Assembly: GCF_000685865.1 (NCBI RefSeq)
Contig: NZ_JMKS01000005.1
Location: 496,001-560,000, forward strand
From: Exiguobacterium antarcticum DSM 14480
GTDB lineage: Bacteria; Bacillota; Bacilli; Exiguobacteriales; Exiguobacteriaceae
Length of the DNA: 64,000 nt
Direction: 5' to 3'
In this document: one piece after another, positions 4,771-49,020 of the stretch
Position numbering within the stretch: position 1 is the stretch's first letter
Layout of the letters: each line of letters starts with the position of its first letter
Notes under the pieces: generated by a model
The model's database searches: none
Told to the model about the DNA's origin: nothing
What the model saw: the letters and a program-made list of their open reading frames with translations, nothing else
Position numbers and translations under genes: made by a program

Positions 4771-6426
4771 ATGCATCATCTCTTGATTGTTGGTGCTGGG
4801 CATGGTGGGACAGAAGTACTGCATGCTTTTCAACGCTCACCATTGTTGACGGTCATCGGGGTCGTCGATCCGAATGAACACGCAATCGGCGTCCAGCTCG
4901 CCAAACGAGGACAAATCCGTGTCGAGACGACATGGACGGCTTTTGAAGGAACAGCGATTGATTTTATCATTGACGCCACGGGAGAACACGGGGTGCTTGA
5001 ACAATTGATTCATTTTTTCCCGGAGGCCGCGGTTTTACCGGGCGAATTCGTCCGCGTTTTACTTGAGCGCCTGGCAGAAAAAGAACGTATGTTAGAAGCG
5101 ATCATTCATTGTACAAGTGAAGCGATTTCTGTAGCAGATCAAGCCGGTGAAACGATGTTAATCAATCCAGCGTATACCCGCATGACAGGGTATACCGAAC
5201 AGGATGTGATCGGTAAACCGGCGAGTGCCGATATCGGGATGCAGGAATCGGTTCATTTACGGGTGCTTGAAACTGGGGAGAGCGTACGCGATGCGCGGAT
5301 GAAGATTGGACAAGATCGGCGGGACATCATCGTCAATGCGGCTCCGGTCGTCGTTGATGGACAAGTCAGAGGATCGGTCGGAGTCATCCGGGATATCTCT
5401 GAAATGAAGGCGCTCACAAAGGAACTCAAGGCCGCGAAACAAAAAATTCGAACGTTAGAAGCGAAGTACACCTTCGATGACATCATTGCGGAAAGCGAAC
5501 CGATGCGTTTTGTCGTGGACCAAGCCAAACTGGCAGCAACTATGCCTGTTAACGTCTTGATTCGTGGAGAATCGGGGACGGGGAAGGAATTGTTTGCCCA
5601 TGCGATTCATGCGGCGAGCGACCGGAGATATGAACAATTTGTTCGAGTCAACTGTGCCGCCATTGCACCAAGTTTACTTGAAAGTGAATTATTTGGTTAC
5701 GAAGAAGGGGCATTTTCAGGAGCACGTCGTGGTGGTAAAAGAGGCTATTTTGAGGAAGCACATGGGGGATCGTTGTTTTTAGATGAAATCGGCGAATTGC
5801 CGCTTGACGTCCAAGCCAAATTATTACGGGTATTACAGGAAAATGAAGTCGTCCGGGTCGGAGGGACAAAAGCTGTTCCGGTCGATGTCCGGATTATTGC
5901 GGCAACGAATGCCAATCTCGAACAAAAAATCATTACCGGCGAATTCCGGGAAGACTTGTACTATCGGATCAATCGGTTGCCGATCCACATTCCTGCCTTA
6001 CGCGAACGGCCAGACGATCTGTCACCACTCGCCACCCACTTGCTTCGCAAACTCAATCAAAGTTACGGCCGATCCGTCGAGCGGATTTCGGAAGACGCAC
6101 TTGAAGCGATTCGAAAACAGACGTGGAAGGGGAATGTCCGTGAATTGGAAAACGTCATTGGACGTGCTTTAATTTTTACGGATAAAACAGAACAAGTCTT
6201 ACGAAAAGGGCACCTTCAACTGGTTGTCACCGTGACTCCGAAACGTTCCGAACGACCAAAAAAAGAAATTAAACATCTTTCAGATGAGATGTCTTATGTC
6301 GAAGAACAATTAATTCGTGAAGCCCTTGATGTCGTCAACGGCAATAAGACGGAAGCAGCCAAACAGTTAGGAATTTCTTTACGTGCGCTCTATTACAAAG
6401 TCGAACGGTTTAACATTCAATGTTGA
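4771..6426 (+). CDS. bkdR: Sigma-54-dependent activator of the bkd operon (BkdR)
   Basis: A 551-residue protein. Order: a Rossmann-like start (LLIVGAGHGGTEVL, about residues 1-80), a PAS domain (about 95-205), a sigma-54 AAA+ domain with Walker A GESGTGKE and Walker B GGSLFLDEIGELP, and a C-terminal Fis-type helix-turn-helix (NKTEAAKQLGISLRALYYKV). The sigma-54 contact loop reads GAFSGA instead of the usual GAFTGA, a conservative change. It sits directly before a -24/-12 promoter and the bkd operon, as bkdR does in B. subtilis. The PAS or Rossmann module probably senses a branched-chain metabolite. It is shorter than B. subtilis BkdR (about 690 residues). Confidence 0.92.
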   Translation: MHHLLIVGAGHGGTEVLHAFQRSPLLTVIGVVDPNEHAIGVQLAKRGQIRVETTWTAFEGTAIDFIIDATGEHGVLEQLIHFFPEAAVLPGEFVRVLLERLAEKERMLEAIIHCTSEAISVADQAGETMLINPAYTRMTGYTEQDVIGKPASADIGMQESVHLRVLETGESVRDARMKIGQDRRDIIVNAAPVVVDGQVRGSVGVIRDISEMKALTKELKAAKQKIRTLEAKYTFDDIIAESEPMRFVVDQAKLAATMPVNVLIRGESGTGKELFAHAIHAASDRRYEQFVRVNCAAIAPSLLESELFGYEEGAFSGARRGGKRGYFEEAHGGSLFLDEIGELPLDVQAKLLRVLQENEVVRVGGTKAVPVDVRIIAATNANLEQKIITGEFREDLYYRINRLPIHIPALRERPDDLSPLATHLLRKLNQSYGRSVERISEDALEAIRKQTWKGNVRELENVIGRALIFTDKTEQVLRKGHLQLVVTVTPKRSERPKKEIKHLSDEMSYVEEQLIREALDVVNGNKTEAAKQLGISLRALYYKVERFNIQC

Positions 6427-44761: not shown

Positions 44762-45658
44762 ATGGACTTTCTCATCCAATGGTCACTCTTTTTGTTGGCA
44801 AGCATCATTCTTGGTTTCTTTTTAGAAAAACGAACGGAAAAAGAACAGTATTTGTATTTGAAGTTTGTTTTTTATGCCTGTTTGGGAGCGGTTTCGTTTC
44901 CGGTATACGACATCCAGCTTCCGCTTGGCATCATCATATTTTTGATTGTCTTGCACCCGAAGAAAAATTCGCGTTATAAACGGTATATGGCCTTATTCGG
45001 ATTTCTTTTTTTCCTGCTCCAATTAATTCTAGGACCGTTCGATACGTTTACACTTCGAGAAGAAACCCAGCAAATGGGTCAGGTCACGATCACGGACGAA
45101 TCGTTTGATACTTTGATGGATCATATCGATCGGCGGATCGGGGATGATTCGTTACGACTGGAGCAAAGTCAATTGTTGTTTGATCAAGGTGGTAATCTGC
45201 GAAATGCAACGTTTGAATTGATCGCGAAAAGTCCCAAACGATTCATCCGGTACGAGGTGTCGTATCAAGAAGTCACGGGGACCTTAACGTATCGGCCGCG
45301 GGAAGAAGTATTGACACGTTCCTTGGAATCGTATTATCAAAAGTTGATCGATGCGTCGGCCTCGTTTCAGACGTTACAGACGTTGTCGATCAAACAGATT
45401 CTACACGAATCAAAAACGCCCTACGTCGAAATGGACCTCGATGGTCTGTACGAAACGTTCAGCTTACAGGATGCGACGGTATTGTTGATCAATGACAAAG
45501 GAGAATTGACTCCTTACGTCAACACAGGAGAAGATGTCCTCGCGAACGCTATTCGCCTGACCTATCTACGTTCTGACGGGCAATCGTTACAAGATAAAAA
45601 AATTCTTTTATATAATTATAGTTTTGAGACATCCAGACGAAAGGGAGTCGTACGATGA
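44762..45658 (+). CDS. Unknown membrane protein with large C-terminal domain, in ECF-like operon
   Basis: A 298-residue protein that I do not recognise. About four membrane helices lie in the first 97 residues, then a roughly 200-residue soluble domain rich in strands and charged residues, probably outside the cell if the even number of helices starts inside. No motifs of known enzymes are seen. AAGGGG overlaps the rnz stop, and its stop overlaps the next start, so it is tightly bound to the DUF4430 and ECF genes. Confidence 0.75.
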   Translation: MDFLIQWSLFLLASIILGFFLEKRTEKEQYLYLKFVFYACLGAVSFPVYDIQLPLGIIIFLIVLHPKKNSRYKRYMALFGFLFFLLQLILGPFDTFTLREETQQMGQVTITDESFDTLMDHIDRRIGDDSLRLEQSQLLFDQGGNLRNATFELIAKSPKRFIRYEVSYQEVTGTLTYRPREEVLTRSLESYYQKLIDASASFQTLQTLSIKQILHESKTPYVEMDLDGLYETFSLQDATVLLINDKGELTPYVNTGEDVLANAIRLTYLRSDGQSLQDKKILLYNYSFETSRRKGVVR

Positions 45659-46065
45659 AAAGATGGATCCTTATCAGCGGTATCGTCCTGCTTGCAGGAT
45701 GTGCGGACCAATCAGCAGATCAAGCAGCTGAACCAAAGACGTGTGAACGGTCGGTCGAAGTATCGGTAATCGATCATGCGCATGATAAGACGCTATATGA
45801 AAAAGACATGTGTCTCAAGGCATCCGAGACGGCGCTTGATGCGTTAGAAGAAACGAATCTTCCGGTCGTCAAAACCGGTAAGGGTGAGATGACTTATGTG
45901 ACGGCAGTCGACGGCATTCGAGAAAAATCTGCCGGAGCGGGTAGTGGCTGGGTATTTGGTGTCAACGAAAAACCGGGACAAGTCGGTGCAGGAGCGTATG
46001 AACTAAAAGACGGTGACCGACTGGAATGGCGATTTGAAAAAGATGCAATGGCTTATTTTCAGTAA
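45655..46065 (+). CDS. DUF4430 lipoprotein (transcobalamin-like fold)
   Basis: A 136-residue lipoprotein: signal peptide with lipobox LLAGC (residues 15-19), then one DUF4430 domain ending GSGWVFGVNEKPGQVGAGAYEL and GDRLEWRFE, which are the typical blocks. The family is named for similarity to the C-terminal domain of transcobalamin and often accompanies ECF transporters. It probably catches a ligand at the membrane surface. Its last 23 bases overlap the EcfT-like gene. Confidence 0.82.
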   Translation: MKRWILISGIVLLAGCADQSADQAAEPKTCERSVEVSVIDHAHDKTLYEKDMCLKASETALDALEETNLPVVKTGKGEMTYVTAVDGIREKSAGAGSGWVFGVNEKPGQVGAGAYELKDGDRLEWRFEKDAMAYFQ

Positions 46066-46741
46066 GGCAGAACGGGAGCGACTTCATCCGCTGAATGTCG
46101 CTCTTTTCGTAGTGGCGATGTTATCGGTCCCGTTCTTTCTACACACACATCTTAGTATGTTATTGCTACTAGTAGGACATGTGTTATTTTTCATCTGGCT
46201 TCGTCAGTGGGGAATCTTTCGTTATTTGTGGTTGCCGCTGATTTATATCGGGATGATGTACTTCCCACTTCTCGGTGGAGGTGCAGTTGACTCATATGGA
46301 ATCTGGCTGACCGGTTTGAAGGTTGCCGTGTTCGTGACATCGAGTCAGCTCACCTTTACGTTGGTTCGGTTGGAACAGATGGGTCCTTTGTTTCGGATTT
46401 TGCCGCGTCTGACCCGTTTGACCGGGATGGTTTTAGCCATCTTACCGTCGTTACTACGGACTTGGCCGGAAGTGAAGATGAGCCATCCGAATCAGCCGTT
46501 AGCAGTCAAGATGGAACGGGTCGCACTCTATCATCTTTTACCGATTGAAGCGGTCCCAAGTGGATTACGACACTTTAATCGGGCTGATTTTTTCATGGGC
46601 CTACTAATCGGGATCCTGTTTTTATTGATGAGGACGCCCCTTGCACCCGGAGCCGCTGCTTTTTTGCCCGTACTGCTGATTTTCTCAAAAGGAGGGATGC
46701 GTGATGCCTACTATCATTACAAACGAAAGCGGCTCGCTTGA
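46043..46741 (+). CDS. Divergent ECF transporter T component
   Basis: A 232-residue protein with about six hydrophobic segments. HPLNVALFVVAMLSVPFFLHTH at the start and the general profile resemble EcfT/CbiQ. The usual Ala-Arg-Gly coupling motifs in the cytoplasmic helices are not visible (the region reads RTWPEVKMSHPNQP), so it is divergent. The ATG at 46043 lies inside the preceding gene; a weak purine stretch precedes it. It overlaps the ATPase gene by 38 bases. Confidence 0.7.
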   Translation: MQWLIFSKAERERLHPLNVALFVVAMLSVPFFLHTHLSMLLLLVGHVLFFIWLRQWGIFRYLWLPLIYIGMMYFPLLGGGAVDSYGIWLTGLKVAVFVTSSQLTFTLVRLEQMGPLFRILPRLTRLTGMVLAILPSLLRTWPEVKMSHPNQPLAVKMERVALYHLLPIEAVPSGLRHFNRADFFMGLLIGILFLLMRTPLAPGAAAFLPVLLIFSKGGMRDAYYHYKRKRLA

Positions 46742-47669
46742 GTTACTTGAACAATTAGCCGGTGCCGCTGGGGCACAGGTCCTGTATCCTGACCGTTTGT
46801 TACATGGTCGCGTCCGGGACGTACTGGCGACGAATAGTTTGTTTGTCGCGGGAGAACTGGCGACGTTACTTGGGTTAGAAGCTTTTTTTGATCGGGAGAC
46901 AAGTGAACTGTCTTCCGGAGAACAGCAACTGGTGTCCCTTGGACATAGCTTGTCTTTTTTGCCCAAGGTGATTTTTTTAGCAGAACCCTTTTTATTTTTG
47001 GACCAGGTCCGCAAAGCCCGTTTGATGGCTTTGTTTAAAGACATCGAACAGCGATTTTCGTGTCACATCACCTACTCGGTGACACGGCAACAACCGTTGA
47101 TCCGGAACCCTGTGCCGGAGCCTGTCATCGGGCCGGTCATCGACGAGATGTTTCGGATTCAACACCGGTATCCGTTACAGACCAAATATGCGTTATCGAT
47201 CGAACGGTTATCCTTCCACTCAGGCGAGCGGGTCGCCTTGATTGGTGCCAACGGAAGCGGGAAATCAACGCTGCTGCGTCTGCTGCTAGGGGTCGATCGT
47301 CCTCTTTACGGTAAAGTGAAGCGGACCGGTGACAAACGCTACCTACCTGCACACCCGGCACTTGCACCTGCCGTGAGCGAACGAACACTTCCGTTCACCG
47401 AACAGAAACACCGGTTGTTGGAACAAATCACTTGGACGGAAGCAGCCTATTACTTTGATGAACCGACAGCTGGTTTGACGGATTCACAACGGATGCTCTT
47501 TATTCAAAAAATGTCTGAACATCCGCAGGCATTAATCGTCTTGGCGACACATGATCCGGATGTGATCATTCATGCCACTCGAATCGTCTATCTTGTACAA
47601 GGTGAGATTGCATTTGACGGTCCGACGTCGGTGTTCACCCAGCAGAGCAGGTTATACGCATGGGATTGA
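46704..47669 (+). CDS. Fused, reciprocally degenerate ECF-type double ABC ATPase
   Basis: A 321-residue protein holding parts of two ABC domains. The N-half (residues 1-140) lacks a Walker A motif and starts near the Q-loop (VLYPDRLLHGRVRDVL), but has a signature LSSGEQQLVSLG and a Walker B with Asp lost (VIFLAEP). The C-half (about 150-321) has Walker A GANGSGKST, Walker B AYYFDEPTAGL and switch LATHDPD, but no signature; its helical domain is reduced to about 30 residues. The C-half P-loop with the N-half signature could make one composite ATP site. GGAGG lies 8 bases before the ATG at 46704. Normal EcfA and EcfA' together are about 550 residues. Confidence 0.85.
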   Translation: MPTIITNESGSLELLEQLAGAAGAQVLYPDRLLHGRVRDVLATNSLFVAGELATLLGLEAFFDRETSELSSGEQQLVSLGHSLSFLPKVIFLAEPFLFLDQVRKARLMALFKDIEQRFSCHITYSVTRQQPLIRNPVPEPVIGPVIDEMFRIQHRYPLQTKYALSIERLSFHSGERVALIGANGSGKSTLLRLLLGVDRPLYGKVKRTGDKRYLPAHPALAPAVSERTLPFTEQKHRLLEQITWTEAAYYFDEPTAGLTDSQRMLFIQKMSEHPQALIVLATHDPDVIIHATRIVYLVQGEIAFDGPTSVFTQQSRLYAWD

Positions 47670-48226
47670 TCCTATCCGCAGTCGTCGCCATCAGTGTACT
47701 TATCCTTCGTTTTGAGTCCCGTCCGGTTTCTGAACCGATGCTTCGTTTCGTAGCGCTCGTCACGGCGGCCGCAATCGCAGGACGGCTTGTGTTTTCCGGT
47801 ATCCCGAATGTGCAGCCGGCAACAGCATTAGTCCTCTTAGTAGCGGCTTGTGTCAGTCCGGTGGTCGGAACGATCGTCGGCCTGCTTGTCGTCGTGTTGA
47901 CGAGTCTGTTTTTAGGGAGCGGTCCGTTTGTATTGTTTCAAATCATGGCTTACGCAGCGATTTGTCTTGCTTGTCTCCTGCCGGGCATGCAACTCAGGTG
48001 GATGTTGTCGTTGTATGGTCTAGTCGCCGGCTTTTTGTATGGATGGATCAGTAATTTAGGTTTTTTGATTTTTACGGATTTTTCGCGAGAGGCGTTTTGG
48101 ACGTTACTGCTGTCAGGGGGTGTGTTTGACCTGATGCATGGCGTCTCGAATCTGATTTTCATCTGGTTGTTACACCCGATTTTTTTACGGATTTTGCATT
48201 CGTTTGACGGAAATCAGGGTACATAA
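47660..48226 (+). CDS. ECF transporter S component-like membrane protein
   Basis: A 188-residue protein with about six helices. The GIPNVQPATALVLLVAACVSPVVG segment and the FLYGWISNLGFL / GVFDLMHGVSNLIF helices are typical of ECF S components. It should bind the substrate in the membrane. The DUF4430 partner hints at a corrinoid or similar ligand, but no B12 riboswitch is visible, so the substrate is open. It starts 10 bases before the end of the ATPase gene. Confidence 0.8.
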   Translation: MGLILSAVVAISVLILRFESRPVSEPMLRFVALVTAAAIAGRLVFSGIPNVQPATALVLLVAACVSPVVGTIVGLLVVVLTSLFLGSGPFVLFQIMAYAAICLACLLPGMQLRWMLSLYGLVAGFLYGWISNLGFLIFTDFSREAFWTLLLSGGVFDLMHGVSNLIFIWLLHPIFLRILHSFDGNQGT

Positions 48227-48258
48227 TAAGTAATCCCATTAGATCGGAGTGAAGCGTG

Positions 48259-48633
48259 ATGATCGGTTCGGCGCTGTCCATAACTTATCTCGTGTTGTTG
48301 TTACTTATTGCGGGTTTCGGTCTGTTATTTGGAAGTATTCTGTTGCTGAAACAAACAATTCGGGGACGCTATGCGGGGTTTTACCTGATTGCAGCCGCGA
48401 TTTTTCCGGCGGCGATGCTCATCACTTCGGTCGAAGGAGGACTGGTCGGGCATCTGTTTTTTGAAACCAACCTCTTTTTATCGATTGTCGCCTGGCTGTT
48501 AGTACTCTCGAGCGGTTACATGGTCATGGTGACAGCAGCTGTCACGCTTCGGTATGTCTACCGCTATACGTCGATTCTGAAAATACTTCAAAAATGGTGG
48601 ACCCATCGTTTTCATCGTCCGAAACCGAACTGA
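48259..48633 (+). CDS. Small membrane protein at the end of the ECF-like operon
   Basis: A 124-residue protein with three to four hydrophobic helices (about residues 8-30, 38-58, 68-98) and a basic tail WWTHRFHRPKPN. I do not recognise a family. GGAG lies 9 bases before the ATG at 48259 (a GTG one codon earlier is possible). It lies 32 bases after the S component and may belong to the operon. Confidence 0.65.
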   Translation: MIGSALSITYLVLLLLIAGFGLLFGSILLLKQTIRGRYAGFYLIAAAIFPAAMLITSVEGGLVGHLFFETNLFLSIVAWLLVLSSGYMVMVTAAVTLRYVYRYTSILKILQKWWTHRFHRPKPN

Positions 48634-48645
48634 TCCAACAGCAAA

Positions 48646-49020
48646 CGGGACTGACTCATAAGTCAGGCCAAAATCAATCCTTGTGACGGACGGTTCGACA
48701 TCCTCACTTTCCATACTTTCCATGGGCGGAAGGTAAGCCGCGGCAGCCCACATTCCATGCGGTCATGCCGGGTCTTACCTATTCCTGCCGGAAGCGCCAA
48801 TCACGCTTCCTTTCCCCATAGGAGTCGAGGATGAACGTTTCCGTCCTCTATCAATCAAATGGCCGATGATTCCATCTTTCGCGGAATCATCGGCCATTTC
48901 TATGCAAATTCTTATTGTTCACGAAGGAAAAGGGAGGTGGATTTCCGGTGTTTGATCCGGAAATCCACCTCCCTTCATTCATTTTAATCGAGAGACGTCC
49001 TTATTTTTGAGTCAGCCCCG
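48646..49020. repeat. Intergenic repeat, long copy (A)
   Basis: A 375-bp non-coding element with ends CGGGACTGACTCA and TGAGTCAGCCCCG, inverted with one mismatch. Inside are the perfect hairpins GGCCGATGATTCC/GGAATCATCGGCC (about 48860-48895) and a 17-bp stem at 48932-48948/48957-48973. Bases 48646-48691 and about 48838-48941 recur at 55005-55150. It lies between convergent genes, where it may also stop transcription. No target duplication flanks it. Confidence 0.85.

Follow-up and report, generated by a model that had tools for sequence, protein, structure and literature searches.

A reduced EcfA-EcfA' fusion conserved in the Exiguobacteriaceae as a probable one-site ECF transporter motor

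ABC motors have a paired design, and the number of ATPs and of sites that each cycle needs is a long-standing question. It is raised again by a gene in a stretch of 64,000 nucleotides from Exiguobacterium antarcticum DSM 14480 (contig NZ_JMKS01000005.1; the whole stretch is referred to here as the window), which encodes a shortened EcfA-EcfA' ATPase in which the parts of only one ATP site appear to survive: could such a chain still drive an ECF transporter? The explanation favoured here, with good if incomplete confidence, is that it is a functional one-site motor, derived from a full tandem EcfA-EcfA' and probably serving cobalamin uptake. The motifs, their conservation, the gene block, the full-length relatives, the matched reduction of EcfT and the purifying selection are all observed; catalysis, the pairing of the halves, the coupling route and the substrate are inferences. 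A one-site ECF motor is unexpected because, in the ECF module of Lactobacillus delbrueckii, exchanging one Glu for Gln in either of the ATPases causes severe growth defects and leaves ATPase activity no higher than background, according to the available part of that report (PMC10368641).

The ATPase open reading frame overlaps both of its neighbours, with EcfT ending at 46741 and EcfS starting at 47660 (Table 1). The ATG at 46704 is preceded by AAAGGAGG and agrees with the starts found in relatives; an alternative GTG at 46701 would give 322 rather than 321 aa. The chain scores 59 bits with Pfam ABC_tran (PF00005), above the cut-off of 25, the best-matching stretch being the C-half, and the P-loop, Walker B and signature expected of an ABC ATPase are each complete once, divided between the halves. 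It does not constitute a canonical EcfA-EcfA' pair, i.e. two complete NBDs with two composite sites, nor does it reach the NCBIfam equivalogs for ECF ATPases, TIGR04520 and TIGR04521, which match piecewise (84.1 against 315 bits and 81.3 against 330 bits, respectively). Of the six proteins that the block encodes in the window, all scanned with Pfam and NCBIfam, only the 321 aa protein matched an ABC model, which gives no support to a second complete NBD within the gene block.

Table 1. Features of the gene block and of the ATPase chain, in window coordinates
Feature	Position	Strand	Basis
298 aa protein, first gene of block	44762..45658	+	no Pfam/NCBIfam match; 38/38
DUF4430 protein, lipoprotein-like signal	45655..46065	+	PF14478, 60.7 bits vs cut-off 23.8; same place in 38/38
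Reduced EcfT, 232 aa, without second coupling helix	46043..46741	+	alignment; no PF02361 match
Reduced fused EcfA-EcfA' ATPase	46704..47669	+	321 aa; ABC_tran match
Possible N-half remnant of P-loop strand-loop-helix region, motif absent	46704..46790	+	alignment with tandem orthologues; low-confidence model
N-half signature LSSGE, residues 69-73	46908..46922	+	Ser/Gly/Glu 38/38
N-half pseudo Walker B FLAEP (91-95) and D-loop FLFLD (96-100)	46974..47003	+	38-row alignment
C-half A-loop region HRYP	47163..47174	+	Tyr 19/38, His 19/38
C-half P-loop GANGSGKST, residues 181-189	47244..47270	+	Lys 38/38
C-half Q-loop position YLPAHP, Gln replaced	47340..47357	+	Gln 0/38
Short linker where C-half helical subdomain and signature are deleted	47358..47447	+	alignment vs tandem orthologues
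C-half Walker B with catalytic Glu, and D-loop without its Asp in the window, YYFDEPTAGLT 249-259	47448..47480	+	
C-half switch His in ATHD, residues 281-284	47544..47555	+	His 38/38
EcfS (S-component), CbrT-like	47660..48226	+	family profile vs PDB 6fnp_A, 9.6e-23; 38/38 order genomes
125 aa protein, last gene of block	48256..48633	+	no Pfam/NCBIfam match; 38/38

A preliminary description of the window, made from its letters alone, held that the N-half has no P-loop and carries Ala for the Walker B Asp while keeping the signature LSSGE, and that the C-half keeps its P-loop, Walker B, catalytic Glu and switch His while having lost its signature and most of its helical domain. All of this is borne out, both in the window, where the sequence FLAEP has Ala in place of the Walker B Asp and retains the Glu, and among relatives. 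The search found the reduced ATPase in every one of 19 genomes from the genus, the window's own among them, and in every one of 38 from the order, which represent one family and two genera, with an identity of 30-32% between the genera. The counts that follow come from alignments; motif regular expressions miss some variants. In the N-half, no row of the 38 has G....GK[ST], the Walker B Asp or a His at the aligned switch column (L088 has one a single residue ahead), and the Q-loop column is deleted throughout; the signature Ser, Gly and Glu (S.GE) and the D-loop Asp are each found in 38/38, and the catalytic Glu in 36/38. In the C-half, the P-loop Lys, Walker B Asp, catalytic Glu and switch His are invariant (38/38 each), and none of the 38 rows has a signature at the aligned place, stray S.G-like strings occurring elsewhere in this half in three of them (L062, L065 and L086). 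The C-half A-loop is divided evenly between Tyr and His (19/38 each). Its Q-loop column, which holds Gln in all 56 tandem orthologues described below, holds Ala in 35 rows, Pro in three and Gln in none, and its D-loop column holds Thr in 27, Asp in seven, Ser in two and Glu in two, the Asp thus having been lost in 31/38. The columns that are invariant among 21 aligned rows include the functional residues of one site.

The pattern becomes simpler once the residues are grouped by site rather than by half. In an ABC dimer, each site comprises the P-loop, Walker B and the A-, Q- and H-loops of one half and the signature of the other, with the D-loops sitting at the interface, as set out in the part of the source available (PMC7756269). 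The site built on the C-half core therefore has its Lys, Asp, Glu and His from that half, and its Ser and D-loop Asp from the N-half, conserved in every genome, the exceptions being the universally lost Q-loop Gln and the A-loop Tyr, present in only half of the rows. From the other site the Lys, Asp, His, signature and most of the D-loop Asp have gone, and only the Glu remains. The asymmetry between the D-loops matches what is predicted if the halves pair, and, together with the loss of both Q-loop Gln and the matched reduction of EcfT, it adds to what had been observed previously. The proposal that only one composite site could be complete is supported at the level of sequence, and at that level the chain has the pattern of an asymmetric ABC motor, one consensus and one degenerate site conserved among orthologues, in 38/38 genomes, save for the missing Gln of the consensus site; hydrolysis confined to the consensus site, the other mark of such motors, would follow by inference alone. 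Purely as an illustration, were five losses to fall at random among twelve elements (Lys, Asp, Glu, His, Ser and D-loop Asp, each twice), the probability of all falling in one given site would be 6/792; this is not a test, because the losses are not independent, one deletion removing several elements.

The reduced form is maintained by selection. Across 60 pairs, restricted to those with dS between 0.05 and 1.2, the median dN/dS (NG86) is 0.11, with a range of 0.07-0.26, and the values for the N-half (0.10) and C-half (0.115) are alike, implying that the N-half is about as constrained as the C-half. Sequence error or local decay can thus be ruled out, given the presence of this form in 38/38 genomes and the constraint upon it. 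Outside the order the form was not detected: a scan of genome contigs returned 12 ATPase loci, nine from Exiguobacterium and three, from bacteria not related to it, that match an ABC protein only weakly and in part (L040-L042), and a search of the class, which is taken here to be the Bacilli, found the ATPase profile at E up to 1e-24 in 38 of 398 genomes, all within the order, only five candidates being scored per genome. The preliminary description had considered that orthologues with full motifs in both halves would indicate decay or error; such orthologues do exist and have been seen only outside the order, within which the same reduced pattern recurs in all 38 genomes searched.

The partner EcfT is reduced in a corresponding manner. 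The window EcfT has no PF02361 (CbiQ) match, and none is found at its position in the genome; likewise, the two coupling helices expected of an EcfT, each ending in an X-Arg-X anchor, are not both present, the second being absent by alignment. Such reduced proteins, with a median length of 242 aa, were found by BLAST at 29 of the 38 loci and by profile at all 38, as against a median of 296 aa for the full-type EcfT of 55 loci. The motif RG[YF][GRT], which marks the end of the second coupling helix in the aligned full rows, occurs in 54/55 full-type proteins, the remaining one having RGYS; none of the 38 reduced rows has RG in the coupling region, and just two have it at all, at the extreme C-terminus. 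The segment that begins with the first coupling helix and runs up to the following membrane helix is 74-76 residues long in 18/18 full rows aligned and 46 in 10/10 reduced rows. The first coupling helix of the reduced proteins ends in Ser-His in 38/38, where full EcfT often has Arg-Gly or Lys-Gly. Judged from the alignment, this first anchor seems to be changed rather than clearly lost, because some rows from the second genus have an Arg directly ahead of the Ser-His. One of the 38 was read past an in-frame stop (L077, genome G007, at about 5283-5980), which follows LEQMGP and beyond which the frame resumes; this is either a sequence error or a decaying copy. In the L. delbrueckii module, X-Arg-X motifs anchor coupling helix 2 in the groove of EcfA and coupling helix 3 in that of EcfA' (PMC10368641, available in part). 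The disappearance of a helical subdomain and of a coupling helix within one operon would, by inference, fit a single remaining groove.

The origin of the reduced chain can be approached through its full-length relatives. Profile homologues of EcfS are present in 136 of the 398 class genomes, 38 in the order and 98 outside it. The surroundings of 58 of these 98 outside loci, mostly those with a long EcfS frame, were read, the other 40 not being included. In 56 of the 58, a tandem EcfA-EcfA' open reading frame of 535-775 aa lies near the EcfS gene, the two without one (L182 and L201) both having a short EcfS frame; a full-type EcfT was found in 55/58, and of the 56 stretches that have a tandem, 46 also have a DUF4430 gene. 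These tandems have nearly complete motifs in both halves. In their N-halves the Q-loop Gln, signature Ser, Walker B Asp and Glu and D-loop Asp are each found in 56/56, and the P-loop Lys in 55/56, the exception (L212) being at a contig end; in their C-halves the Lys, Gln, signature Ser, Asp, Glu, D-loop Asp and His are each found in 56/56. The N-half switch column has His in 49/56 and Gln in the remaining seven (L193, L204, L205, L209, L212, L213 and L218), perhaps an early asymmetry.

When the halves were scored separately, the reduced C-half scored highest against tandem C-halves in 38/38 (mean of 79 bits, compared with 54 for tandem N-halves, 44 for EcfA1 and 51 for EcfA2), and for the reduced N-half the best score came from tandem N-halves in 33/38 and from tandem C-halves in the other five (means of 36 for tandem N, 31 for tandem C, 16 for EcfA1 and 14 for EcfA2). 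The canonical EcfA1 model was built from only five sequences and that of EcfA2 from 28. This half-by-half correspondence, and the tandems themselves, lend support to the earlier suggestion that the chain arose from EcfA-EcfA' by reduction. Alignment points to three losses: the first sheet, P-loop and Q-loop of the N-half, of which a short strand-loop-helix may remain; the end of the N-half past the switch region, together with the linker that joined the two halves; and the stretch of the C-half from the Q-loop to Walker B, which comprises the helical subdomain and the signature. No intermediate between the two forms was found among the 56 tandem loci. In a tree of EcfS, which included 10 of the 38 reduced rows, the 56 tandem rows and two solitary ones, and which had only a midpoint root and some long branches, the reduced rows cluster in a single clade next to the tandem rows and not among them. 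A nested origin within the tandem clade is not seen, and the case for the tandem as the earlier form comes from architecture, deletions being hard to reverse, and not from the tree. As for which partner was affected, tandem N-halves favour the NCBIfam model ECF_ATPase_1 by 16-24 bits in 3/3 cases and tandem C-halves are undecided, with 3-4 bits either way, so that loss of the EcfA' side may be entertained but is only weakly consistent with these scores.

Structure prediction of the monomer, suggested at the outset as a check, was only partly informative. An AlphaFold2 model of the ATPase based on ten sequences (mean pLDDT 67.9, pTM 0.62, residues 29-81 below 50) supports, as far as so weak a model can, an ABC core in the C-half. 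It lacks the arrangement of a tandem dimer, leaving the placement of the halves undecided and saying nothing firm on their pairing. VIA-align coverage falls mainly on residues 143-321; one row (46, to 8gmj), which spans 34-320 of the model and might point to an arrangement of two NBDs, was not used. Foldseek retrieved tandem ABC proteins at an rmsd of about 10 A or more, meaning that the placement of their halves was not reproduced. The EcfT model is likewise weak, with a mean pLDDT of 53.5.

At all 38 loci the ATPase gene stands together with those for the 298 aa protein, the DUF4430 protein, EcfT, EcfS and a small protein. The two genes without a family assignment (44762-45658 and 48256-48633) frame the transporter genes in 38/38 and are possible accessory parts. 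Both QueG, which is cobalamin-dependent, and a protein with a B12-binding domain are present in 38/38 genomes of the order, whereas CobS was found in none of the 38. The EcfS profile is homologous to CbrT, matching 6fnp_A at an E value of 9.6e-23, this entry being the ECF-CbrT complex, a cobalamin ECF transporter of L. delbrueckii (PMC5997447, consulted as a partial text). Cobalamin uptake is likely because the S-component is CbrT-like, QueG is present and CobS is absent, although the evidence is indirect, and without binding or transport data the substrate is no more than inferred. The riboswitch searches point both ways: a cobalamin riboswitch lies just upstream of DUF4430 in one tandem-type operon (L187:9089-9288, minus strand), the only upstream case among 28 tandem loci searched, and another lies downstream of EcfS in a second such operon (L206:3937-4121, minus strand). 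None reached threshold in 11 reduced-type loci, and the window between 38000 and 52000 yielded no riboswitch, just five weak matches to miRNA families, all under their gathering scores. Weak matches of this kind on both strands at 48914-48992, downstream of the block, probably represent an inverted repeat or a two-way terminator. Haem or another ligand is not excluded; LhaSTA of S. lugdunensis is a haem ECF transporter (PMC7299338, seen in part).

A possible cycle can be outlined on the inferred premise that the two halves of the chain face each other head-to-tail, as in ABC dimers. The P-loop, Walker B Asp and Glu and switch His of the C-half, with the signature and D-loop of the N-half, would then form one composite site, and a single ATP bound between the halves would close the pair. 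Closure would move the one EcfT coupling helix, presumed to be seated on the N-half helical subdomain, the sole one left; this movement would release or turn the S-component, and hydrolysis would reopen the pair. Slightly better than an even chance is given to the fuller statement that this is a naturally minimised importer motor that still works: a chain of ~320 residues with a single ATP site and a single helical subdomain, acting on an EcfT with a single coupling helix. In that case the two-fold construction that is considered essential for ECF (and ABC) engines would have been lost from the ATPase as well as from its membrane partner. Counting against the one-site cobalamin motor are the lack of activity or structural data, the loss of the Q-loop Gln in all 38 rows and of the A-loop Tyr in 19, the weak model, the absence of nesting in the EcfS tree, the scarcity of riboswitches and the stop in one EcfT.

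Two sites might instead be assembled from two chains, either as a swapped dimer, in which the N-half of each chain meets the C-half of the other, or through the N-half helical part folding back onto its own C-half, such that a single NBD dimerises. This would make use of the complementarity of the halves in their subdomains, the N-half having a helical part with little core and the C-half a core only, and the AlphaFold2 model does not exclude it. However, the fold-back form would not predict that the D-loop Asp is invariant in the N-half and mostly lost from the C-half, a result that is not against the swapped form, and an EcfT deprived of one coupling helix fits one groove rather than two; an assembly of this kind is regarded as improbable, though not negligible. 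The lost Gln, the disappearance of a whole site and the solitary EcfT stop (1/38) could also be taken to mean that the chain is no longer an ATPase, being either a structural or regulatory remnant or the product of a gene in the course of being lost. A remnant of this sort seems very unlikely: against it stand the invariance of the C-half Lys (P-loop), Asp and Glu (Walker B) and His (switch) and of the Ser (signature) and Asp (D-loop) of the N-half, the low dN/dS and the retention of the block in all 38 genomes. Least credible of all is that the missing parts are supplied in trans by one of the cell's housekeeping ATPases, EcfA or EcfA'. The genome does hold a canonical ECF module, a PF02361 EcfT preceded by ECF ATPase genes (locus L089), but the losses in the two halves of the chain complement each other, its own EcfT is reduced to match them, and that EcfT and EcfS lie beside it in 38/38. 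The one-site motor remains the preferred reading.

Among known systems, the closest are the tandem EcfA-EcfA' operons (such as L186, L188 and L199), which are alike in S-component family, gene block and half-by-half match, and differ in their length, in having a P-loop, Q-loop, signature and Walker B motif in each half, and in an EcfT with two coupling helices. In asymmetric exporters both NBDs are present and the degenerate site is changed at individual residues, and in TAP (ABCB2/B3) it is ABCB2 that supplies the signature of the consensus site. Exporters of this type, TM287/288, TmrAB, TAP and Pdr5, likewise have unequal sites, the degenerate one being conserved among orthologues, and in TAP the D-loop of ABCB2 alone is essential, in the accessible portion of the source (PMC7756269); its location in the signature-giving subunit parallels the conserved N-half D-loop of the reduced chain. 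By contrast with those exporters, whole subdomains have been deleted here, from a motor of importer type. ECF-CbrT of L. delbrueckii (6FNP) shares the S-component family, by profile, and differs in having separate EcfA and EcfA' and two ATP-binding sites, on the evidence of the partial text (PMC5997447). The reduced ATPase is hence an extreme variant of asymmetric ABC motors and not a new kind; none of the papers listed by searches of the open-licence literature describes such a chain, as far as titles and the openings of abstracts show.

Asymmetric exporters leave the question of site number unsettled, because their degenerate site may still hold ATP (PMC7756269, same portion). In the reduced system the second site has lost both its P-loop and its signature and a coupling helix has gone, so that, if the transporter works, one site and one lever suffice. 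This contrasts with the L. delbrueckii ECF module, in which single catalytic mutants are inactive in the part of the report seen (PMC10368641): that motor needs both catalytic Glu, and the reduced family, if active, has escaped the need. For structural studies of ECF coupling, the system also provides a natural scaffold of small size. The presence of the reduced form in every genome searched in the family suggests that a motor of this kind may run on one site.
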